Assembly (NCBI RefSeq): GCF_028583425.1
Contig: NC_072802.1
Location: 13,091,926 to 13,155,925 of the forward strand
Source: Eublepharis macularius
Taxonomy: Eukaryota; Chordata; Lepidosauria; Squamata; Eublepharidae
Direction: 5' to 3'
DNA length: 64,000 bases
This document shows positions 1 through 54,269 of this stretch, in pieces (the stretch's first letter is position 1; every line of letters begins with the position of its first letter). A program made the translations under genes and the position numbers. The notes beneath the pieces are model-generated. The model was not told the DNA's origin and made no database searches. It saw nothing but the letters and a program-made list of their open reading frames with translations.

Positions 1-2998
1 CTCTAATCTGTCTATACTGGAACCAATCATAATAAGGTAGTAGTTCCTCCTGAGTCCTTATTCTGAGTTTAGATGCTTCAATTCTAGTTATTTCTTTATA
101 AGTTAAACATTGTTGCTCATTATCAACAGCTCTCGGATCTATCACCTCATATGGAACTACCCACAAAGGGGTTCCTTCTTGTAAATAGATTCTGTACTTC
201 TTCCAGATTGTATATAAACTTCTCCGTATATAATGATGCAGGAACATCGAGTTCACCTTTACTTTATCATGCCATAGGTATGCGTGCCATCCGAATATTT
301 TTTTGTATCCCTCTAGGGCTAGTAATTTCTTGTTCTTTAACGTCATCCACTCTTTCAACCACACTAGGCAGATTGCGTCATGGTAAAGTCTTAGATTGGG
401 CAGTTGCATTCCGCCTCTTTCTTTTGCGTCTTGTAGAACTTTCATTTTCACTCGAGGCTTCTTGCCTGCCCATACAAAATCTGATATTTTCCTCTGCCAT
501 TTTTCGAATTGCTTGGAGTCTCTGATGATTGGTATTGTCTGTAGCAAAAACATTACTCTTGGTAACACATTCATCTTAACTGCTGCAATCCTTCCCAACC
601 ATGACAAATTCAGCCTGTTCCATTTAATCAAATCTCTCTCTATCTGAGTCCATAATTTTTCGTAGTTATTTTTAAATAAGTCTATATTCTTAGCAGTCAG
701 TTCGATTCCCAAATATTTCACCTTGCTTGTTACTTCACAATCCGTTATTTCCATTAACAATTGTTGTTTCTGCTTAGTCATGTTTTTACATAATATCTTT
801 GACTTCTTTTTATTAATATAAAAACCTGCCAAATCTCCAAACTCCTTAATCTTATCTATCACTTTTGGCATGTTCTCCAATGGGTCCTCTACAATTAACA
901 TTATATCATCCGCAAATGCTCTGACCTTGTATGAATAGTCCTTTATTTTTATTCCTCGAATTTCTTCATCTTGTCGTATTTGTATCATCAGGATCTCCAA
1001 TACCAAAATGAACAACAGTGGAGACAACGGGCAACCTTGTCTTGTTCCTTTACTTATAGTCAATTTCTTAGTCGCTTCATCATTCACCACAATTGCTGCA
1101 GTCTGGTCTCTGTAAATTTCCTTAATTGCTCTAATGAATCTTTCTCCCAATTGTAGCTTTTCCATAGTGGCAAACATAAAGTCCCAGTTTAAATTGTCAA
1201 ACGCCTTTTCAGCATCAACAAAGAAGAAACCAACCTCTTTATCACAACGCTTATCATAATATTCAATAGCATTAATCACTGTCCTTAAATTGTCTCTGAT
1301 TTGTCTGTCTGGCAAAAAGCCTGCTTGTTCCTCCTCGATAACTTCCGAAAGCCACCCCTTCAGTCTCTCCGCCAGTATCTTCGCAAAGATTTTATAGTCG
1401 TTGTTAAGTAACGATATAGGTCTATAGTTTTTCACATTAGTCAAGTCTTGGCCCTCTTTGGGGATCAATGATATATTCGCTTCACTCCAGGTATCTGGAA
1501 TCCTTTGATCCCTTAAAACTCCATTGATCACCTCTTTTAGGAATGGTGCCAGTTCATTGGCCATTGTCTTATAAAATTTAGCCGTAAGTCCATCTGGCCC
1601 TGGCGCCTTTCCTAGATTTGCAGATTGTATTGCCTTACTTAATTCCTCATCCGTTACTTCACTGTTCAATTTATTTCTCCAAACTTCCGAGATTACTGGA
1701 AGTTTCATTTTCTCCAAATATGATGCTATTGATTCTTTATTTACCTCTTTCTTATTGTACAGCTTAGCGTAGAATTTGTAAAAGGCTCTACTAATGGTAG
1801 TCTGTTCCAAATACGTTTTATTGTCTTCACAAATTTTATTTATTATTTTCTTTTCCCTTCTCTTCTTCAATTGCCATGCCAGATACTTCCCAGGTTTGTT
1901 TGCACCTTCAAACGCTTTCTGATTCAGTCTTTTAAGGTTCCACTCCAATTCTTTATTACTCATTGCTGTTAACTGTTCTTGAAGTATTTTAATTTCCTGA
2001 TATAATTTCTTTTTCCCTGGTCTCTTTTTTAACTGTATTTCTTTGGCTTTTATTTTCTCCTCGATCTCTTGTCTTTTCTCCTCTTTCTTTTTTCTTGCTC
2101 TACCATTTAAGTCCATTAGTATGCCCCTTATAACCGCCTTATAAGCATCCCAAACTTTATCAGTTGGTACTTCTTTATTCACGTTGTATTGTATGAAGAA
2201 CTTTGTCTCTCTTCTCAGCATCTCCATATTCTCTCCTTCCTGTAGCAAGTCCTCATTTATTCTCCATGCTTTCCTTTTTCTCCTTTTCCCTAATTTCCAC
2301 ATAATTGGATTGTGATCTGAGCCTACCATCGGCATTATTTCTACCTCCTTAGTCCATAACGCTAAGTCTTTTGAGGCCCAGATCATATCAATTCTTGATA
2401 ATGTAGAGTGCCTTGCAGAATAAAAAGTAAACTGTCTGCTTTTAGGATATTCTCTTCTCCATACATCTTCTAGAGTCTCCTGTTGTATCAACTCAAAAAA
2501 GAGCTTTGGTAATAGTCCTCTTTTCTTTTGTGCCGTTATTGTCTTTTTATCTAATTCCAAGTTTGTCACTCCATTGAAGTCTCCAGCAAGAATTATCTGG
2601 TCATATGAAAGATCGTCTAGTTGCTTCCTCAAATCCTCAAAGAAGCTTTCTTTTGCACCGTTAGGTGCATAAACTCCGACTACCAACACTCTCTTTAAGT
2701 TCCAGGTACATTCCACTGCTATAAATCTGGCTTCCACATCTTTCATTACAAATTTTGGCTGTAGCTCCTCTTTTATATACAACACCACTCCTCTTTTTTT
2801 CTTATTGGAGGCCGCTACAAATTCCTTGCCCAGTTTTCCCAATTTTAAATATTTTACATCCTGCTTTCGAATATGGGTCTCTTGCAAACAAACAATGTCA
2901 CATTTTTGTTTTAATAGCCAGTGGAAAATGTTTTTTCTCTTATTCGGTGAATTTAGTCCATTTACATTCCAAGATAAAACTTTACACTCCATACTCAT
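1..2998 (-). CDS. L1 ORF2p: endonuclease and reverse transcriptase (partial at C-terminus)
   Basis: ORF2p nicks the target DNA and primes reverse transcription of the element RNA from the nick. The frame starts at the ATG at 2998-2996. Its N-terminus reads MSMECKVLSWNVNGLNSPNK, the standard start of the apurinic-like endonuclease. QETHIR follows, with the catalytic Glu, and GSDHNP carries the Asp at about residue 228. The RT domain shows NYRPISLLNND, FVDAEKAFDN, TRQGCPLSPLLF and the catalytic AFADDIML at about residue 695; human ORF2p has its FADD near 702. The start ATG, the SDH codon and the FADD codons are all in one phase. I see no stop in this frame as far as the edge, so 999 codons are open. 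About 275 residues of the usual 1275 should lie beyond the window. Confidence 0.93.
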   Translation of the reverse strand, partial: MSMECKVLSWNVNGLNSPNKRKNIFHWLLKQKCDIVCLQETHIRKQDVKYLKLGKLGKEFVAASNKKKRGVVLYIKEELQPKFVMKDVEARFIAVECTWNLKRVLVVGVYAPNGAKESFFEDLRKQLDDLSYDQIILAGDFNGVTNLELDKKTITAQKKRGLLPKLFFELIQQETLEDVWRREYPKSRQFTFYSARHSTLSRIDMIWASKDLALWTKEVEIMPMVGSDHNPIMWKLGKRRKRKAWRINEDLLQEGENMEMLRRETKFFIQYNVNKEVPTDKVWDAYKAVIRGILMDLNGRARKKKEEKRQEIEEKIKAKEIQLKKRPGKKKLYQEIKILQEQLTAMSNKELEWNLKRLNQKAFEGANKPGKYLAWQLKKRREKKIINKICEDNKTYLEQTTISRAFYKFYAKLYNKKEVNKESIASYLEKMKLPVISEVWRNKLNSEVTDEELSKAIQSANLGKAPGPDGLTAKFYKTMANELAPFLKEVINGVLRDQRIPDTWSEANISLIPKEGQDLTNVKNYRPISLLNNDYKIFAKILAERLKGWLSEVIEEEQAGFLPDRQIRDNLRTVINAIEYYDKRCDKEVGFFFVDAEKAFDNLNWDFMFATMEKLQLGERFIRAIKEIYRDQTAAIVVNDEATKKLTISKGTRQGCPLSPLLFILVLEILMIQIRQDEEIRGIKIKDYSYKVRAFADDIMLIVEDPLENMPKVIDKIKEFGDLAGFYINKKKSKILCKNMTKQKQQLLMEITDCEVTSKVKYLGIELTAKNIDLFKNNYEKLWTQIERDLIKWNRLNLSWLGRIAAVKMNVLPRVMFLLQTIPIIRDSKQFEKWQRKISDFVWAGKKPRVKMKVLQDAKERGGMQLPNLRLYHDAICLVWLKEWMTLKNKKLLALEGYKKIFGWHAYLWHDKVKVNSMFLHHYIRRSLYTIWKKYRIYLQEGTPLWVVPYEVIDPRAVDNEQQCLTYKEITRIEASKLRIRTQEELLPYYDWFQYRQIR

Positions 2999-3852
2999 AA
3001 TCTTGTTGGTAAGTCCTTTTCATTGTCCCTTATAAATCGCTCCATCTCTCGCTCAGATCTAATGCGCTTTTTGGCCCCTCCAAATTCAAAGGACAGACCT
3101 TCTGGGAGCTCCCATCTGTACCTGATTTTCATGTCCTTCAACATCTGGATTAGCACTTTATATTTTTTCCGATCTAGTAACACTGATCTGGGTAATTCCT
3201 TCATTATGATAATTGTCTTGCCATCAATCTCCAATGGGTCTTGAAACTGTTTAGTCACAATCTTCTCTTTCATGTTTCGTGTCGTAAACTGCACAATCAC
3301 ATCTCTTGGTAATTTCCTCTGGGTTGCAATTCTCGAGTTTACGCGATATGCCACATCAAGGATAGCCACAACTTCCTCCTCCTCCTTCCCCAGGTATTCA
3401 GCTAACACCTCAGTCATCTGTTCTTGCGCTGTCTTTCCTTCCACTTCCGGCAAGCCGCGAAATCTCAGCTGCTTCTCCATGTGTCTACTTTCCGCAACCG
3501 CCATTCTTCCCCTCATCAGTCTCATCTCTGTTTGTTGCGTGTCTGCTAGATTCTCCATCGCGCCTTCTACTGCTTTAACTCTCCGCTGCGTTCCTTGTAA
3601 TTCATTTTGTATTGTTTCCATACCTTTCTTCACTTCTGACAGCTCCGATTTTACTGTCTGTTTAACCTCTTTAATCAGCTCCAATTTCGTGTCCTTAAGT
3701 TCTTTAATCACTTCTAAAAGTTTTTTGTCCAGGTTTTCTATTGCCGATTGCCACTCTTTTTTCGACATCGTGGGGCTTGCTTTAGCTCGCTCCCACGAGT
3801 CCGCTCTCTTCCTTAACTCCGTGGCGTAAGATTTAATATCTTTTCGTTTCAA
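2995..3852 (-). CDS. L1 ORF1p RNA-binding chaperone
   Basis: ORF1p trimerises and coats the L1 RNA in the retrotransposition particle. The 285-residue frame has a charged coiled coil at about residues 35-130 (repeated ELKDTKLELIKEVKQ-like heptads), then an RRM-like part (KQLRFRGLPE, VIVQF) and a basic C-terminal domain (LPRSVLLDRKKYKVL, RYRWELPEGLSFEF). Human ORF1p is 338 residues, so this one is short but complete in layout. The start is odd. The frame extends to a TTG at 3852-3850 with an in-frame TAA a little upstream and no ATG between. The first in-frame ATG is at 3768-3766, residue 29, with A at -3. Either an ATG became TTG or translation begins at residue 29. The TGA stop overlaps the ORF2 ATG as ATGA. 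Confidence 0.9.
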   Translation of the reverse strand: MKRKDIKSYATELRKRADSWERAKASPTMSKKEWQSAIENLDKKLLEVIKELKDTKLELIKEVKQTVKSELSEVKKGMETIQNELQGTQRRVKAVEGAMENLADTQQTEMRLMRGRMAVAESRHMEKQLRFRGLPEVEGKTAQEQMTEVLAEYLGKEEEEVVAILDVAYRVNSRIATQRKLPRDVIVQFTTRNMKEKIVTKQFQDPLEIDGKTIIIMKELPRSVLLDRKKYKVLIQMLKDMKIRYRWELPEGLSFEFGGAKKRIRSEREMERFIRDNEKDLPTRL

Positions 3853-4683
3853 ATGTCCCGGTCTTCTTGCATAAATTAATTTTTAAAGAGTCCAAAATGT
3901 CGGGCGTCTTTTCTCTATGGTTTCTCTATGATTTTGTAATCCAAAATGGCCTACTTCCTTTTCCGCTGAAGCCACGACCCTTCCCCTTTCAAAGATGGTG
4001 ATTCCCTTCTTCCTGCCCTCCAGCAAGGGCCGCTTCTCTCCAGCAACTCTATTGTTATTACGCACTTCCTGTCTCCCGACTTCCCACAGTAGGTCTCGCG
4101 ATGGTATCTTTTTCTCACAGCTCCATAACCGCAAGTATTCAAAACAATAGTCCAATTTCTTTAATAACTTCTTTAAACTTAGTCTCTTTTCAAATACAAC
4201 TCTTGCCGAGTCTTCCCCTCCTTTTCATTAGCCTGTTGCAGTTTGAAAATCTACTTTTATTCCTCTCTGCTTTTATCAATCTGTCCCGTATCAGAAGATA
4301 GTGATCTTTACCTTCTCATTCACTTTTCTCAGGTTGTAATCGCTGTTTCGATTTTAACTTCTCCTCTCCACTTCTTCCCCCAATCGAAGCTTGGGTATGT
4401 AGGTCTTATGCCAGCCAAATTGGCCCCAGAACTGCCGCAGAGATTGTAGCCGACCTGTCGCAGGGTGGGACCTCAAGGATCGGGAGGGGACCCGTTGCGC
4501 AGAGCCCCCCCTCGTCCGAGATCTAACACACCCTAGGGTCTTGAGCGTTCTTTGCCTGCTCTCCGCCTGAGAGCAGTCGGCCGCGGGCTATTTTCCCCCG
4601 CCGGCCGCTTAAAACGGCAGTCCGGTCAGCTCCGCAAATGGAGCTGCTTCAGACCTCCATAAATCCCAAACCGGAAGTCCGGA
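3853..4683 (-). promoter_or_regulatory. L1 5' UTR with internal promoter
   Basis: This is the leader between the element's 5' end and ORF1. The 5'-most 250 bp (right side) are CpG-rich. The last bases on the right carry ACCGGAAGT (4670-4678) inside the palindrome CCGGAAGTCCGG (4671-4682), a textbook ETS/GABP-type site at the predicted transcription start. The remainder, toward ORF1, is AT-richer and has no long open frame that I recognise. L1 promoters are internal and lie in this region; that this one is used is inference. Confidence 0.75.
4670..4682 (-). promoter_or_regulatory. ETS-type site at the L1 5' terminus
   Basis: ACCGGAAGT lies within the palindrome CCGGAAGTCCGG at the very 5' end of the L1. 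ETS sites close to the start are common in TATA-less CpG promoters. This is a motif match only. Confidence 0.5.
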
Positions 4684-4820
4684 AAAAATTTTACAGTCAT
4701 TATTGAGTAACGAAATAGGTCTATAATTTTTAACGTTAGTCAAATCTTGTCCTTCTTTAGGGATCAGTGATATGTTGGCTTCACTCCAAGTATCTGGGAT
4801 CCTTTGATCCCTCAAAATGC
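4684..4820 (-). pseudogene. Scrap of an older L1 ORF2 RT domain
   Basis: Reads IPDTWSEANISLIPKEGQ, then DLTNVKNYRPISLLNND and CKIF on the minus strand. It is collinear with about 1381-1520 of the left-edge L1 but diverged at many sites. It is cut on the left by the young L1's 5' end and on the right by a palindrome. It is probably the target into which the young L1 inserted. Confidence 0.85.
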
Positions 4821-4828
4821 ATCTCTGA

Positions 4829-4857
4829 CTGCGTGATGACATCATGTCATCACGCAG
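4829..4857. repeat. Perfect 29-bp palindrome
   Basis: Two 14-bp arms (CTGCGTGATGACAT and its complement) surround a single central base. The core TGACATCATGTCA resembles the GTGATGTCATCAC-type sequence seen in repeat H at about 12.97-13.12 kb, so it may be a piece of that family. Confidence 0.8.
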
Positions 4858-5320
4858 CGCGAGATGGATGGGGCGGTGCGCGGAAGCTTCTCCATGCTCC
4901 GCACACTGCCCCAGCAGCTGCTCGCAGCTTCTGCGCCCAGCTGGGGCATGTGGGGGCAGAGGAGTGCACAGCAGAGCTGGCATGACTGGCTGCAGCAGTA
5001 GCTGCAGCCAGCCAGCCGCTGCCACTGCCAAGCTCCCCAGCTGGGCGCAGAAGCCCCGAGCTGCTGCTGGGGCAGTGCATGGAGGCTGCTCCACGCGCCG
5101 CCCCAGCAGCGCCTCGTGGCTTCTGCACCCGGCCAGGGCGTGTGGGAGCAGCCAGCCCCATGCCACTGCCACCACGCGCCCCAGCTGGGCGCAGAAGCTG
5201 CAAGCCGCTGCTGGGGAGGCGCACGGAGGCTGCGCCCGGCTGGGGCGTGCGGTGGCGGCGGCAGCACGGGGCTGGCTGGCTGGCTACAGCAGTAGCTGCA
5301 GCCTAGTCATGCCAGCTTCG
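4858..5320. repeat. GC-rich complex of nested inverted repeats
   Basis: Modules such as CCCAGCTGGGCGCAGAAGC and GCTGCTGGGGCAGT recur in both orientations (for example about 4905-4950 against 5038-5085, and again near 5180-5220). A longer outer pair around GCAGCAGTAGCTGCAGCC occurs near 4990 and 5290. The stretch is CpG-rich and open in several frames on both strands, which is expected of stop-poor GC-rich DNA and is not evidence of coding. The family is not known to me. Confidence 0.7.
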
Positions 5321-6019
5321 CTGTGCGCGCCTCAGCCCCCAACACCCCCTCCGGCGCCCCTCCAGTTCCCTCGCGCCCGAGGCCACTGCCTACCTGGCCT
5401 CCATGGGCGCGCCGGCCCTGTTTATGACCTTGTACTTCCTCTCAGACTATGATATGTCTTTCTTCCTAGAAACGCAGCGTGATATCACAAAGATGTAAAA
5501 TGTTCTCACGAAGAAAGAGCGGCAAAACATTGTTTATAATTGGGAGGGGGAGGAAAAGTGGACTAGAAAAGAAATGTATCTCTCACATGTTGTCATTCCT
5601 TTCAATCTCTAGTCGAGCTGCTTAGACGTTTGTTTTACTCCTAAGTAGACCTATGGACCTGAATATGGAAATGATCTGATTTTTAAATAAACTCCATTTG
5701 ACTAAGTACTTGTGTCTTACTGCAAATGGGAGAGAGGTCTGTCTGCTATATCCTGTCACCCATGCCTGACACCTGTTGGGGAGAGACAAAACTACATGAG
5801 ATTTTGGATTTGGATCTCTGTGTTCAGCTCTGCAGTCAAACTTCTCTAAACAGCAACTTTGGGGAAGGGACTTTAGCATTTGCCCAATTAATGCTCCCTG
5901 CCCTGCCATTTTCCTTATGGAAGTCCTGCCCTCCCCAATGTACTTTTTGGCTTGACAGAGAAAATATGCAGGCAAGCCCAATGGAGAAATGCTAAAGTTA
6001 TTTGGCTGTTTCAGTGATA
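5321..6019. other. No recognised feature
   Basis: The left part is still GC-rich, then the sequence becomes ordinary AT-richer non-coding DNA. I see no repeat family or coding signal in it. Confidence 0.6.
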
Positions 6020-6165
6020 TCACTCCCCACTGCTTTAATCCTCTTTGAAGTGATGTTTTAGAGGAAAGCAATGGCAATCCAGCTCTGCTCATCTCTTGCC
6101 TTGAAAACCCTGTGGGGGTAACCATTAAGTGAGCTGCGACTTGACAGCACTTAATTATGAAGTGC
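6020..6165 (-). mobile_element. 5S-type SINE, 3' body fragment
   Basis: On the minus strand it reads like the body of the 5S-headed SINEs at 40.7 and 44.4 kb: GTCAAGTCGCAGC, a TTTTCAAGGCAAGAGA block, then GATTGCCATTGC. The 5S head is missing. Confidence 0.6.
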
Positions 6166-9642: not shown

Positions 9643-10056
9643 TCCTGTTTTCACCTCTGAAACACCGGAGGGTGTGGCATGCCAATGCGTGCCTGTGGAG
9701 GAAAGTGCATGCAAACACGACATGCCACGTTTTGAACAGCAGCCATTTTGCAAATGGATCTTTTCTGAGATTAAATGATTTACCAAAGGTTCTTATCTTT
9801 TTAAAAGGAAGTTGTGGTGATAATTTTACTGACACAGCCTGTTTCAGAACCCAGTGAGGTATATGAATAGCACATATTTAGCATACTGGAGGTGGGGAAA
9901 AGGGGAAGAAGAGATTCACTTTGGCGTGAGAATAAATGTTACAAGTAGGAAAATGTTCCTATTTTCATCTGTGAAATGTTGGGTGCTATGCCACCTCATC
10001 TACTTAATTACCTGTTTATACTCCACTGTTCTCCCCCTTGAAGACTAAAGGAAGCT
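9643..10056. other. No recognised feature
   Basis: Non-coding sequence up to the 5' break of the CR1 copy. Nothing further seen. Confidence 0.5.
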
Positions 10057-11108
10057 TACAATATCATCAAAGGCTCCTAAGTAAGCTCAGTAGCTATGGG
10101 ATAAAGGGCCAAGTCCTCTTGTGGATCGAAAACTGGCTAATTAATAGGAAACAGAGAGTGAGCATAAACGGGCACTTCTCACAGTGGAGGGTGGTGAGCA
10201 GTGGGGTGCCACAGGGGTCGGTATTGGGTCCAATGCTTTTTAACTTGTTTATTAATGATTTGGAATTGGGATTAAGCAGTGAAGTGGCTAAATTTGCAGA
10301 TGACACGAAATTGTTCAGGGTGGTGAAAGCCAGAGAGGATTGTGAGGCACTCCAAAGGGATCTGTCGAGGCTAGAAGAGTGGGCATCCATGTGGCAAATG
10401 AGGTTCAATGTAGCCAAGTGCAAAGTAATGCACATTGGAACCAAAAATCCAAAATATAAATACAAGTTGATGGGGTCTGAACTGGCGGAGACTGACCAAG
10501 AGAGAGATCTTGGAGTCATGATAGATAACTCACTAAAAACGTCAGCACAGTGTGCGACTGCCATAAAAAAAGCTAATGCTATGCTAGGGGTTATTAGGAA
10601 AGGGATTGAAAACAAATCAGCCGGTATCATAATGCCTCTGTATAAATCGATGGTGAGGCCTCATTTGGAGTACTGTGTACAGTTCTGGTCGCCACACCTT
10701 AAAAAAGATATCATAGCACTGGAAAAAGTACAGAGAAGGGCAACTAAAATGATTAAAGGGTTGGAACACTTTCCCTATGAGGAAAGATTGAGGCGCTTGG
10801 GGCTCTTTAGCCTGGAGAAAAGACGACTGAGGGGAGACATGATAGAGGTTTACAAGATAATGCACGGGTTAGAGAAGGTCGAGAAAGATGTGTTTTTCTC
10901 CCTTTCTCACAATACAAGAACTCGTGGGCACTCTATGAAATTATTGAGCAGTCGGGTTAGAACAGATAGAAGAAAATACTACTTTACACAAAGGGTGATA
11001 AACACATGGAATTCGTTGCCACAGGAGGTGGTGGCAGCTACAAGCATTGCCAGCTTCAAGAGGGGACTGGACAAATATATGGAGCAGAGGTCCATCAGTG
11101 GCTATTAG
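10057..11108 (+). pseudogene. CR1 ORF2 reverse transcriptase, C-terminal half
   Basis: About 350 codons are open to a TAG stop at 11106-11108. The order is LLSKLSSYGI, then VPQGSVLGPMLFNLFINDL, the catalytic KFADDTKLF, RDLGVMID, the CR1-typical RPHLEYCVQFWSP, KVQRRATKMIKGLEH, YEERLRRLGLFSLEKRRLRG and the C-terminal WNSLPQEVV. The endonuclease domain and the first RT blocks are absent, so it cannot act alone. Frame entry here is set by the truncation; there is no real start codon. The frame has kept no internal stop, which points to a fairly recent insertion. Confidence 0.92.
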
Positions 11109-12559: not shown

Positions 12560-12725
12560 GTGGGTGTTGCCTTCTGACACACTTCCGGTGATGTCAGGGG
12601 GTATGGCATATGCAAATCAGTTATGCCAATGACACACTTCTGGTGATGACAAGGGGCGTGGCATATGCTAATGAGTTATGCTAATGAGTTATGCTAATGA
12701 GCTATGCTAATGAGTTCCTGCATAT
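12560..12725. repeat. Family-C related fragment with ATGCTAATGAG tandem motif
   Basis: Shares GACACACTTCTGGTGATG, GGCATATGCTAATGAGTT and CAAATCAGTTA with the hAT-type element at 34727-35160. The 13-bp motif TTATGCTAATGAG is repeated four times in a row at about 12665-12716. Confidence 0.75.
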
Positions 12726-31455: not shown

Positions 31456-32134
31456 CCTCCCACCATCATTACATGAAAATTAAAAAAGAAGAAACAAACC
31501 TGAAGCACTATTCAATTCTGTACTAGTGCTGAGGTCCAGAGGCGAGGGCTGAGAACTGAAGAGCAGTCGTGAGATAGGACTGTATTTCTGGCATTCTAAT
31601 CTTGTGTACCAGGAAAACGTGCGATGAGTGATTCTCTCAGTGCACATGGTCACTGTTTTGTATGAAAAGAGCAACACATATATTTTGCAGCTTTGTACAT
31701 GTGAATGTGTACCCCAAAAATCCAGGGTTTGGGTAGCATGTTTTGTGCCTGGAAAATACATGTGTGTAAATCAAAATCAAAAGTGTTATGTAAAAATATG
31801 ACTAAAGCAAAGCAGGATGAGTTAATGAGACTTACTGAGTGTGAAGTGGTTAAAAAAACAAAATATTTGGGAATTAAGTTAACAATGAAAAACATACACT
31901 TATACAAGAATAATTATGAAAAACTGTGGGTACAATTGGAGAAAGATATGATAAAATGGAATAAATTGAACTTGTCTCTGATGGGTCGCATATCTGTATT
32001 GAATGTATTGCCAAGGGTAATGTTTTTATTACAAACAATCCCAATTGTTAAAGAGGTGAAACAATTTGACAAATGGCAAAGGAAACTGTTAAACTTTGTT
32101 TGGGTGGACAAAAAACCAAGGGTTAAGATGAAAG

Positions 32135-33246
32135 TGTCCGGGGTCTGAGTCCCAGCCCCCAGACTTGCCAGGAGGGAGCAGTGGGAGGCAACCGGGAGGC
32201 AGTGGCCCTACCACCCCAGCCAGCAACCAGGTCCAGAACCTGCCTACTCCAGGGGGAAGGGGCAAAAGGCCAAAGCCTCAGAGGGCTGGAGGGAGCAGGG
32301 AGAGACCACCCAGTCCCTCCCTCCAGGGGGAAGAGAGGGGGCTAAGCAGGACAGAGGAAAAGGGCCAAGGCAGGGGGAATAGGGGCTTAGCAGCAGCCCA
32401 AACAGAGCCCTTACCTGCCAAGGACGAGAAGCAGCCACTACAGCCCAGAACCACACCCCGGCTAGAGGACAGCAGCCTGGCTCAGGAGTTGCTAGGAGCC
32501 AAGCCCCTCCAGGTGGAGCTGCCACAGGCATTCTGGGGGAGGAGATGGGTAGCCCTGCCCAGCATCAATGAGCACACAGCCCAGAAGCTGGCCAGGGCAA
32601 TTTCTCGCGAGCAAGGCCAGGCAAGCTCAGCAGCGCAGAAGCTGGCTGGGGCAGCTCCTCGCGAGCAAGGCTAGGGAAGCTCAGCAGCACAGAAGCCGGC
32701 TGGGGCAGTTCCTCATGAGCAAGGCAAGGCAAGCTCAGCAGCTCAAAGGCCTACTGGGGCAGCTCCTTGTGAGGAAGGCCAAGGAGACCTCAGCTGGGGA
32801 TGGCTCACATTCAACCCCACCCTGCCAGCAAGGCAAGGAAGCCTAGAAGGGATTAGTGATAGGAGGGAAACACCTGAGGGGAGGCACAGCTGGGCCAAGT
32901 CAGGAGAGGGAACAAGCCTAGAAGGAGGGCGGGGTGGGGAAAGGAAACCCTATATAAGGTGGCTAGGAAGAGCTCTGAGGTGGTGGGTGTAAGGAGTGAT
33001 GGTGTGGAAGCGGAAGCAGAGCAGTGTGAGAGCAAAGGCAAGGAGGAGAGTGGATGGAGGAGGAGGAGATGGCAGAGGCCAAAGAGGGTGAGTGGCACAG
33101 GTTGAGCAGGCCAGCGAGTGGACTGAGAGGGAGTCCGGGTGATGTATACCGCCCCTCCTTCCACAGAGCAGGGTCCTGCAGAGTCCCTGGCCCCCCTTTG
33201 ATGTCAGGAGCAGACCGCCCAGCGGCAGCCACTGCAAGCCCTGACG
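32135..33246 (+). mobile_element. LTR-like insertion (candidate solo LTR)
   Basis: A 1112-bp block splits the L1 coding frame and is flanked by a 5-bp duplication GAAAG (32130-32134, 33247-33251). It starts TGTCC, has a GC-rich first part with a 54-bp tandem repeat and a TATA-box region (CCCTATATAAGG near 32949-32960). These are the parts expected of U3 followed by R-U5. It ends without the usual CA, so the family is uncertain (LTR kin, or another non-coding element). No coding part is present. It is younger than its host L1. Confidence 0.45.
32580..32800 (+). repeat. 54-bp tandem repeat, about four units
   Basis: Units begin CAGAAGCTGGCCAGGGCA and include CTCGCGAGCAAGGC and AAGCTCAGCAGC. 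The period is about 54 bp with growing divergence to the right. Confidence 0.85.
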
Positions 33247-34726
33247 GAAAGTACTGTATGATGCGAAAGAAAGAGGTGGTTTGCAGTTGCCAAATTTGAG
33301 ACTTTATCATGAAGTGGTTTGTTTGACATGGTTAAGAGACTGGGTGAATTTATCTAACTGTAAGTTGTTAACTTTGGAAGGCCATAACAATATTTTTGGT
33401 TGGCATGCTTATCTATGGTATGATAAATATAAAATGGATGGTATGTTTTTACATCATTATATAAGAAAAAATATTTTTTCTGTATGGTTGAAATATAAAA
33501 AATATTTTGAAGAAAGAAGACCTTTATGGATTGTTCCTGCAGAAGTTATAAAACCGCATTCAGAATACCAAGGGAAAGAATGGTTAACCTACAAAGACTT
33601 GTTGTTAATGTATGGAGACATAGTTAAAATGAAGAAAGAAGAGGATTTAACTTTTAAATATGGATGGCTACAATATTGACAAATATTGACTTATATGAAT
33701 CAGATAAAAAGGAATTTGGTTTTAGAAGAAAAAATTCAGAAATGGAGGAACTTTTATTAGGAGATGATACAAAAATGATTTCTAAGTTTTATAAACTATT
33801 ATTGAAATGGTATACAGAAGATGAAGCGGTTAAGGCTCAAATGGTGAAATGGGCACTGAATTTTAATAAAGAGATTATAATGGAACCATGGGAGTTTTTA
33901 TGGAAAAATGCTTTGAGAATATCTACATGTACCAAATGATGTATAGATGGTATCTAACCCCTAAAAAATTAGCAAACATGAGTAATGTTATGTCAAATAA
34001 GTGTTGGAAATGTCAGGAACATGAAGGTTCCTTTTACCATATGTGGTGGACTTGCGATAAGGCAAAACAATTTTGGTCTTCTATCTATGTTGAAATATTG
34101 AAAGTTCTGAACTGTAATTTGCAGAAAAATCCTGAAATGTTTTTGTTAGGACTCAATATGGAAACTATAAACATGAGGGACAGAACATTATTATGGTATA
34201 TGATTATAGCAGCAAGATTGTTGTATGCGCAATACTGGAAGCAAGACAAGATACCAGAAGTTGATGAATGGATACAAAAACTTTTGTATATGGTGGAAAT
34301 GGACAAACTAACTAGAAAGTTAAAAGAGCAAAGTTCAAATGATTTTTTGATGGATTGGAGAAAATTTAAAGAGTATTTGGAAAAGAATTGGGATGTAAAA
34401 GACCAGCTGTGGTCTATGGACAATTTTTGATGCGTATTATGGAATTTGTTGAACTTAATTTTGATTGTAACTTTACCTTTGAAGATTATGGAACATAATA
34501 GAATTAGAGGGGAAATTGTATGAATTATAAGGTACAAGTGCTGTGGGAGGTCTGAAGGGAGGGAGGGAGGGGAAGGGTGGGCTGGGACGAATTTGTAATC
34601 TGTAGGAGAAAGAAAGAGTGAAGTGTATATGTTTTCTATGTTTGTTCTCAACCTATCCAATAAAATATTTATTAAAAAAAAGAAAATACATGTGTTGCCT
34701 GTTTCATACAAAAGGATGGCTGTACA

Positions 34727-35160
34727 CAGGGCACATTTTGAGGGGGAACGTGCAGGAATGCAGTTCCGGCAGTTCCCCAAAGAGGTCACATGTCAGGTGG
34801 TCCTGCCCACTTGACTCTCGGCCATTTTGGGCCCGTTTCGTCCTGGATTGGGGCTGAAACGGCCTGGATTGGGCCTCTGACAAGTGGTAGAACACACTCC
34901 CACTCAGCAGCAGCCTGATCTTCACCATTTTGGGCCCCTTTTCGGCCATTTTCAGCCACTTTTTGCCAATTTGGGCCCAATTTCAGCCCTGAATGGCCAG
35001 GATTGGATCCAAAACAGCCAAGATAGGTAATGTCAGGGGTGTGGAATATGCAAATCAGTTAAACTAATGACACACTTCTGGTGATGGCAAGGGGCATAGC
35101 ATATGCTAATGAGTTATGCTAATGAGTTCCTCCAGCTCTTTTTCTATGAAATGACCCCTG
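34727..35160. mobile_element. hAT-type MITE, family C copy 2
   Basis: Opposite orientation to copy 1: starts CAGGGCACATTTTGAGGGGG and ends TTCTATGAAATGACCCCTG. Internal GGGCCC/CCATTTTGGG modules are shared, with an added ATGCTAATGAGTT part as at 12.65 kb. No clear 8-bp duplication remains. Confidence 0.8.
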
Positions 35161-50991: not shown

Positions 50992-52266
50992 TTTTTTTTG
51001 GATGAAATTTTATTGGATGGGTTAACATACAATCAAATTAAAAGCAACTACATTTCTTTTCAGTTCCCATAAGCATATGTTCCCCACCCCTCCCCTCCCC
51101 CATTTCAATGTTGACTTCCAACAGCACTCCAACCCCCCGTTTTCTGATCCTATTTCTACACTATAATTATTAGTCTGTTACTATTGGTAAAGGTCTAAAA
51201 TATATCTTATCTTATTTAATATACTTCAAAAGACCACAATTGTCCCTTGACATCCCATTTTCTTTCTAAGTGCTTTCTCATTTTCTTCCAGTCTTTGAAA
51301 AATCCCTTTGGATCTTGATCTCTCAGTTTTCTCGTTAATTTGTCCATTTCAGCCATGTACAACAGTTTTCGTATCCATCCTTCAATTTCAGGTGTTTCTT
51401 CTCTCTTCCAGTATTGTGCATATAATATTCTTGCCACTGTTATCATATAGTACAATAATATCCTGTCATTTCTATTAACGTCTTCCAAATGTAAAGATAA
51501 CAGCAACATTTCTGGATTTTTAACAACATTATACTGGAGTATTAAAGACATCTCAGCACATATTCTAGCCCAAAAGTCTCTAGCCTTGCCACAAGTCCAC
51601 CACATATGCAATAGAGAATCTTCATGCTCCTTATATTTCCAACACTTGTTAGACAGCTGTTTATTAGCTATGGCTAATTTTTTCGGTGTTAAATACCATC
51701 TATATAACATTTTATAGCCATTCTCTTTAATACTGGTACATGTTGAAATTTTTAAGGTATTTTCCCACAATTGCTCCCATGCCTCCATCGTTATTTCATT
51801 ATTACAGTTTATCGCCCACTTTATCATTTGGACCTTGACTGTCTCATCTTCTGTAAACCACTTTAATAACAGTTTATACATTTTAGAGATTGCTTTATTA
51901 TTATCCCCTAACAAAAGTTCTTCTAACTCTGAATTTTTAGTTTTAAAACCTGTCTTCCTTTGATCTGAGTCATATAAATCCTTGATCTGTCGATATTGTA
52001 GCCAGCTGTATTTGAATGGCAATTCCTCATTTGGTTTGAGTTTTAGCTCCTTATCTTCTGTTTCTGTTAATTCTTTAAAGGTAAGCCATTCTTTTCCTTT
52101 GTATTCCAAATTCTGGTTAATCACTTCAGCTGGTACAATCCACAGTGGCTTCTCCTGATCAATGTATTTTTTATATTTCAGCCAGGTTAAAAACAAAGTT
52201 CTTCTCAAATAGTGGTATTGGAACATTGCGTCCATTTTGTGTTTATCGTACCACAAATATGCATGA
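50992..52266 (-). mobile_element. L1 LINE 3' end inserted in the hAT transposase
   Basis: A 5'-truncated L1 with poly(A) at 50992-50999 and AATAAA next to it. It is flanked by a 17-bp duplication GCATGGCAATGCTACCC / GCATGGCGATGCTACCC (50975-50991, 52267-52283) with one mismatch. It interrupts the conserved hAT reading QIKGSIAM...GQMLHWKKEL. Confidence 0.95.
51216..52256 (-). pseudogene. L1 ORF2 C-terminal 346 codons, open
   Basis: MWYDKHKMDAMFQYHYLRRT, PLWIVPAEVINQNLEYKGKE, NSELEELLLGDNNKAISKMY, RWYLTPKKLA, the Cys/His part CWKYKEHEDSLLHMWWTCGK, RILYAQYWKREETPEIEGW and the end KWDVKGQLWSFEVY. There is no internal stop. It lacks EN and RT because of 5' truncation. It is very like the copy at 33.4-34.4 kb. 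Confidence 0.93.
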
Positions 52267-54269
52267 GCATGGCGATGCTACCCTTGATCTGGGGGTCACA
52301 GAGGGAGGACATTTGGTACGGCACCTTGTGGTGCAGAGGGTGCAAGTGCTCGGCCACACATGCCTGGATTCTCCTCACAAAGTCCCGGACTCTGGGGAGC
52401 AGCTCTTTCTCATGCTCGAGCTCCCTGGCCAGGAACTGGTCAAGCCCGTGGATCAGGGGGATGACCTAACCCAGGCTTGCCTCATAGGAGCACAGGAGCT
52501 CAGTGGCCTCCTTAAAGGGTTTCAGCATCCGGGACATCTGGGCAAGGACTCTCCATTCCATGGAGCTGAGGCTCAGCTCCTCTCCCCTCCTCAGAATGTC
52601 CGTGGATGACAGGATGTCCTGCAACAGTCCCCTCTGCTCCACCAGATGACATATCATGTCAGAGGTGGAGTTCCAGTGGGTGGGCAGGTCCTGAAAGAGT
52701 TGGTGCTTGGGGTCCCCCCTCCTCCTGCCTCTGGAACAGCTCGCAGGAAGAGTTGATGCTGCGGGAGAAGTGGGAAGTGATGCGGCGGCAGCTCTCCAGC
52801 AGATTGCATGTCCACAAGGTTCCCTCATCCCAGCTGTCCCTTGGCTTGCTCCCCAGCCCAAGCACATCCCTCATCACCAGGTGCAGCTTGTGCACCATGC
52901 ACACCAGGCCTGGGAGGGATGCCTCTTTCAGGGCTGCCAACATGTTGCTTCCCGCATCCATCACCATGAATCCACAGACAAACCCTTCCGCCCCTGCCGT
53001 CCAGTCCCTCAGAGCTGCCTTCATGGTGGTGGCTATGTTCTTCCCAGTATGGACCTCGTCCCTCCCTCGGGCCTGGAGAAGAACTACCCTGTAGCCCGAT
53101 GTCAAGCATAGCGCCTTTTCCCGGGGGCCAGTTCATGGCCTGGAGTGGCGGAGGTCCTCTGGTTGCCACCAGTGGGCGGTGATGGCAAGGTACCCATGAT
53201 GGCAGCCACTCCACAGGTTGGCCGTGAAGTGTACAGTACGGTCTTTGGCAGCTGACACCTCTCTGAGCACCAGGTCTCGCACAGACTGGTAGAGGGCAGG
53301 CAGGACTCGACGCCCAATGGTGCGCCGTGACAGCATGGAGAACCACAAGTCAAAGTGCTAAAGCAGCCTTTGGAAGCCCATGCCCTCCACGATGGACACG
53401 GAATCCTTGCAGGGCAATCGTCTCTGCCATCACATGAACGCCCACCTCCTGAGCCCTTGACCTCACCCTTTTCAACGGAACTATACCCAACCCCGATGGA
53501 ACAACCTCCCCAAGGGCGGCCTACCTGACCATTCTGCTCGCTCCAGCAGCACCCTTGAGGCAAGGCCTCTTGCTTTGGGTGGATTCTGGTGACCCTCCCA
53601 CTGATCCCGGCTCAGAGGAGCTGGTAGCCCTCTGTCTCCCCCAGCCAGATGTTTTGCTGACCGATGACGGAGACCACAGACTCGGTTTACGCATCTTCAG
53701 GTGCCTGGTAAGGACCATTAATGACAGGTGCTTCGGGTCATTGTTCCTGCGCACCAGGCCATCACAGACATGGCACCGCACCACACAGGGATCATTTGGA
53801 AGGGCCTGGAAGGGCCTCCATACAGACCATTTGAACCATGGCCCACTAACTGTTCCTGGGGAGGGAGGACGAAGGGTTACTGGCTGTGGCGCCGAGCTGG
53901 CAATGGAAGACGGAGTGACGGGTGGACTGCAGGCAGGGACAGCACCAGAAGTTTGGGATGGGGATGGGATGGATGTTTCATCGAACCCAAACCATTCCTC
54001 CATGAATCCCTCAGCCTCCTCCTCCTCAAACATTTTAAAGAGTTTCTCTTCCCCTGGTGGCAAGAGCTCTTCAGCCTCCTCCACAGTCCCCAAAGGTGAT
54101 TTTTGGGGAGCAGAAATCTCTAATGCTGCAGAGCCCTGCCCAGTACTGCTTCCTGCGGGGCAACTGGGACAATCTTTGCTCTTCCCCCCACGACCACCCT
54201 TCGCCCCCGGCTGAAGCCTCATTGTGCCCGCAAACAAGAATTAAGCAGGAAAGAAAAGGAGACAACACT

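Follow-up and report, generated by a model that had tools for sequence, protein, structure and literature searches.

A young and apparently complete L1 retrotransposon of the gecko Eublepharis macularius, inserted into an older L1

The gecko element and its described counterparts

A study of Anolis lizards describes 20 L1 families, low divergence for the LINE groups used (typically less than 2% from the consensus) and 2,508 L1 insertions that are polymorphic, 1,089 of them being full-length (PMC5389967). The Anolis carolinensis families with a long 5′ UTR (L1AC1-15), which likewise belong to the L1 clade and come from a lizard, are characterized in this study by a full length of 5.2-6.8 kb, a 5′ UTR of 800-1500 bp, a low divergence between copies and many polymorphic insertions (PMC5389967). 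The gecko copy reported here fits this picture, a likeness that concerns the published description of families from another species. Since many recently active L1 families are already known from lizards, the finding is itself an expected one; what it adds is the record of a young gecko L1 family, of which this copy looks like a typical member.

The window, i.e. the whole 64,000-nucleotide stretch of DNA analysed (G000:C13:13091926-13155925), carries at its left edge, on the minus strand, what we regard with near certainty as a young and structurally complete L1-clade non-LTR retrotransposon that entered an older, 5′-truncated L1 through target-primed reverse transcription. The young element occupies window positions 1..4680 and continues left of the window up to a 3′ end at about G000:C13:13090445, for a whole length of about 6.16 kb. 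Its 5′ end is placed at about 4680, which is also the starting point of most relatives in the alignment of the fetched copies. The GC content of the whole element is 38.6%, and the length of 6166 nt used below is that of the L1 cut from its locus (L009), tail and five junction bases included. Relatives were sought in one assembly (2.2367 Gb in 72 contigs), in which the first search pass returned 10,531 candidates, a loose figure that is no count of copies. The sample used throughout consists of this copy and 19 others, namely the best 20 of 40 scored matches, picked by their similarity to this copy.

ORF2 (minus strand; 1..2998 in the window, with its last 254 codons outside) starts at the ATG at 2998 and, as stated in the first-pass annotation, reads in one phase to the left edge of the window, through 999 codons without a stop. 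That annotation had also pointed to the part of the element lying beyond the edge as the place to look for a disabling lesion. In the assembly, ORF2 reads on to a stop after 1253 codons in all, with neither a premature stop nor a deletion in its C-terminal part, and a poly(A) tail of 12 A is present further on. The assignment to the L1 clade stems from an APE-type endonuclease and a reverse transcriptase in ORF2 (Pfam domains Exo_endo_phos, E 1.4e-17, and RVT_1, E 2.2e-39), the closest protein being L1 ORF2p. The best PDB match of the first 999 codons is the L1 ORF2p structure 8sxt (E 2.6e-154); the top five of 59 PDB sequences comprise the reverse transcriptase construct 8c8j along with four entries that bear the name LINE-1 ORF2 protein, and the R2 proteins trail far behind (best E 2.8e-27). 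In the alignment with 8sxt, in which query positions are numbered from the residue preceding the ORF2 ATG (the ORF2 numbers being lower by one), the endonuclease residues N12/N14, E41/E43, Y111/Y115, D141/D145, N143/N147, D205/D205 and H230/H230 (query/8sxt) are identical, and the FADD pair D698/D699 of the reverse transcriptase is aligned with D702/D703. We take all these aligned positions to be the catalytic positions of 8sxt. A CWKC...H...C motif, presumably the known C-terminal motif of ORF2, was found by sequence at the ORF2 C-terminus.

With human L1, from which we assume the PDB entries 8sxt (ORF2p) and 2ykp (ORF1p) to derive, the gecko L1 shares the order of the ORFs, the aligned catalytic positions of the endonuclease and the reverse transcriptase, the ORF1p match, the target-site duplication and the A-tail. 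The gecko ORF1p (257 amino acids) is shorter than human ORF1p, which has 338 amino acids.

The 5′ UTR (minus strand, 3769..4680, 912 nt) had been noticed as GC-rich, which holds for its first 250 nt (61.6% GC), the whole UTR having 48.2%, both values being computed on a 917-nt cut that includes the five junction bases. Tandem monomers were looked for in the 5′ UTR and none was found. The 3′ UTR (705 nt) ends with AATAAAA-T7-C, directly followed by the 12-A tail; an A-tail of 5-16 residues occurs in 19 of the 20 copies. This 3′ UTR contains a G-rich polypurine feature, a quadruplex-type motif GGGGGGGGAAAGGGAGGGGG at element position 6063, and perissodactyl L1s are described as carrying polypurine tracts in their 3′ UTR (PMC5872511).

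The ORF1 start and the ORF1-ORF2 junction

ORF1 (minus strand, 2995..3768) comprises 257 codons and a TGA stop, within a frame that, in agreement with the earlier reading, is open over 295 codons from stop to stop. An ORF1p of the L1 clade comprises a coiled coil, an RRM and a C-terminal domain. In the gecko ORF1, residues 55-245 match L1 ORF1p 2ykp in the PDB search (E 1e-7), and the Pfam match to Transposase_22 (E 3.9e-4) is under the cut-off of Pfam, as is that to the RRM model. The first-pass annotation had reported the ORF1 ATG as missing, which proved to be wrong: the ATG sits at 3768 and is common to 19 of the 20 copies, this one included. It was missed because this frame is also free of stops in the 38 codons that precede the true start. 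In 18 of the 20 copies, the 257 codons counted from this position form an open frame; the single copy with ATA instead of ATG is one of the 18. Judging from its sequence, the present copy has no visible ORF1 defect.

One may ask whether the true ORF1 start lay upstream and was lost, so that ORF1 would be broken and the copy dead on arrival. Two observations are in keeping with this scenario: the frame is open for the 38 codons above the ATG at 3768 both here and in 12 of the 19 copies that cover this stretch, and a family that is about 66% identical (L038) can be aligned over the stretch before the ATG (75% over 132 nt). From the stops and the frameshift present upstream in seven of the 19 copies, and from the phase pattern of the variable sites, we rejected this scenario, which we consider highly improbable. 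First, an in-frame upstream ATG is absent from all 19 copies covering the stretch. Second, six of these copies have an in-frame stop in it, and one has a frameshift together with stops. Third, four copies share one upstream stop codon and are grouped as a clade with a support of 100, which indicates that a source bearing this stop went on amplifying. Fourth, the variable sites of the upstream stretch are distributed as 3/10/6 by phase, a third-position share that is lower than that of ORF2 (85/65/197 by codon position in the 20 copies; p 0.035) and lower, not significantly, than that of ORF1 (16/16/42; p 0.07). Fifth, the stretch has 16.7 variable sites per 100 nt versus 9.6 and 9.2 in the two ORFs. 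Sixth, L038 has an ATG at the same place, in the context ATG-TCG-AAA. With the ORF1 start thus placed at 3768, the 38 codons upstream of it appear to behave as 5′ UTR; counted by phase in the 20 copies, variable sites number 26/29/37 for the remaining 5′ UTR and 33/41/34 for the 3′ UTR. The excess of variable sites at third positions in both ORF1 and ORF2 fits past selection on both proteins. As L038 keeps both ATG-TCG-AAA and an alignable stretch before it, this stretch may function as RNA.

In all 20 copies, the stop of ORF1 and the start of ORF2 lie within a shared ATGA, and a second in-frame ATG occurs 6 nt after the first one; in L038, read by eye, only the equivalent of the second ATG was seen, two bases past the stop. 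The 4-nt overlap of the gecko ORFs contrasts with the 63-nt spacer given for mammalian LINE-1 in a review that lists AUGA among the stop-start arrangements for coupled reinitiation (PMC5972666). In SART1, a silkworm non-LTR retrotransposon for which translational coupling has been observed, the ORF1 stop likewise overlaps the ORF2 start, the overlap being UAAUG there (PMC5972666) and AUGA in the gecko L1. Reinitiation may take place at the ATGA of the gecko element. SART1 is not an L1, and the compact ATGA junction would suit testing coupled translation in a vertebrate L1.

From the knowledge of the L1 family, we propose that the 5′ UTR would drive transcription; that ORF1p would be translated from the ATG at 3768 and ORF2p made by reinitiation at the overlapping ATGA; and that the endonuclease of ORF2p would nick the target, reverse transcription then starting from the poly(A) tail. 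What the locus itself offers to this scheme is open frames, domains, a tail, a duplication and close relatives.

The insertion site and the age of the lineage

The young L1 is bordered by a 19-bp target-site duplication, TAATGACTGTAAAATTTTT, the upstream copy of which is at 4684..4702 (minus strand) and the downstream copy left of the window, in L009. Duplications of 11-19 bp were observed in 17 of the 20 copies, and none was seen for the three others (L013, L017 and L023). The target is a fragment of the ORF2 of an older, 5′-truncated L1 (4684..4817, minus strand, 134 nt, 85.8% identical), which has the same orientation as the young L1 and resumes on the other side of it, in L009 and L037, where its pieces are 76-88% identical. 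Around the older L1 lies a hAT-like DNA element, the GC-rich part of which spans 4818..5420 (no strand assigned) and terminates with the outer end ...GCCGGCCCTG. An 8-bp duplication, TTTATGAC, is present at both outer ends of the CAGGGCCGGC...GCCGGCCCTG element (window 5421-5428 and L037). We assume hAT elements to be marked by duplications of 8 bp and by short terminal inverted repeats that begin with CAG; the flanking element shows both features and fits the hAT type.

Because the 4684-5420 region (the ORF2 piece and the GC-rich stretch) directly adjoins the 5′ end of the young L1, and because its L1 piece is in the same orientation, it could be regarded as a part of the young element, which would then be a composite or have transduced a 5′ flank. 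We rejected this possibility, the probability of which is practically negligible: the duplication puts the element boundary at about 4683; the remainder of the older L1, which is split, is found on the far side, after the same 19 bp; and the upstream flanks differ in the 19 other copies. We therefore retain the insertion of the young L1 into an older one. Another young copy (L012) likewise lies inside an older L1 ORF2, the flanks being 68-71% identical on both sides. Internal direct and inverted repeats occur in the hAT-like GC-rich part (window 4818-5428).

As regards age, a distance of 0.73% separates this copy from the nearest of the 19 others fetched; 26 substitutions over the 6166 nt (0.42%) are private to it, and its terminal branch in the tree is 0.52%. 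The first-pass annotation had suggested a still mobile L1 lineage, a suggestion that a divergence of several percent from the relatives would have undermined; within the 20-copy sample, relatives are found less than 1% away. From both ORFs being open, the complete 3′ end and these close relatives, recent mobility of the lineage is well supported. The "still mobile" part of the suggestion finds less support, in view of the private substitutions, of the 0.52% terminal branch and of the distance of the closest pair among the 20 copies (0.45%); with no near-identical pair in the sample, current activity is unproven.

It is conceivable, though we lean against it, that the lineage recently became extinct, its copies being fixed remnants that date back a few million years. 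The nearest-neighbour distances in the sample range from 0.45 to 2.75%, none being near zero. With a rough rate of about 0.8e-9 per site per year, the 0.52% branch would place the insertion at about 6 million years, itself a rough figure. On the other hand, 20 copies picked by similarity in a single assembly may miss younger or polymorphic insertions, and both ORFs have been kept open in nine of these 20 copies (two of the nine being incomplete at one end). We read the lineage as a recently mobile one.

The 3′ terminal tract and other repeats of the window

In the 19 copies that have this end, the 3′ terminus is ordered as CCCAAT, A(n)T(m), C and tail, with n of 4-9 and m of 3-7. The sum n+m is 11 in 14 of these 19 copies, 10 in two, 12 in two and 13 in one. 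When mapped on a tree from which the tract had been left out, the number of A residues changes at least 10 times and the total length at least five times, whereas 6129 columns on the same tree change 0.128 times on average and five times at most; these counts are indicative only, the tree being star-like with weak nodes and the tract being a multi-state character. Genome-wide, exact tract matches number 1671 (868 + 803), in a search whose pattern imposes the total of 11 and leaves five A/T positions free, and the reversed pattern gave no matches genome-wide. A hand count of the first 100 of the 1671 matches, all on contig C1, gave 59 A6T5, 24 A7T4, 15 A5T6 and 2 A4T7, none being mixed.

Transient template-primer slippage is expected to shift such a boundary while leaving the length constant, and a dislocation mechanism is in print for the reverse transcriptase of HIV (PMC3105016). 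We tentatively suggest, as an idea that may well turn out to be incorrect, that the tract is a mutation hotspot where shifts of the A/T boundary outnumber changes in length, owing to slippage of this kind by the L1 reverse transcriptase in the first nucleotides synthesized. Our reserve comes from the length changes of the tract and from shifts at other junctions, since one-base shifts at constant length occur in a few copies at a G/A junction of the 5′ UTR, a C/A junction of ORF2 and G/A junctions of the 3′ UTR. At ten other A/T junctions of the element (runs of at least 3), no boundary shift was found in up to 20 copies; the runs involved are shorter than those of the tract, and coding constraint acts on eight of these junctions, which are located in ORF2. 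The tract shifts might possibly also result from errors of host replication, or from several source genes with different tracts; sister copies share their state in part, L018 and L022 having 9 A each. If slippage by the reverse transcriptase were the cause, each genomic copy would record early errors of the enzyme, and the pattern of the 3′ tract could offer an easy way of reading, from genome sequence, such errors at the start of target-primed synthesis.

Other traces of retroelements occur in the window. An older L1 ORF2 is present at 31717-34427 (plus strand) as pieces of 51-63% amino-acid identity, broken by an insert of about 1.1 kb that harbours a 54-bp GC-rich tandem array (32577-32781). 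The C-terminal part of another L1 ORF2, with 57% amino-acid identity to the young ORF2, forms a 353-codon open stretch at 51219-52277 (minus strand), for which Pfam returned no match. A 366-codon open frame at 10008-11105 (plus strand) encodes part of a reverse transcriptase domain (RVT_1, E 6.4e-18), the one reverse transcriptase match obtained with Pfam on 10 other frames of the window, nine of which had no match; this frame was not matched in the L1 ORF2 search of the window and likely belongs to another retroelement clade. Finally, the same 13-bp unit, TATGCTAATGAGT, makes up two separate tandem arrays, at 12664-12716 and 35102-35128.
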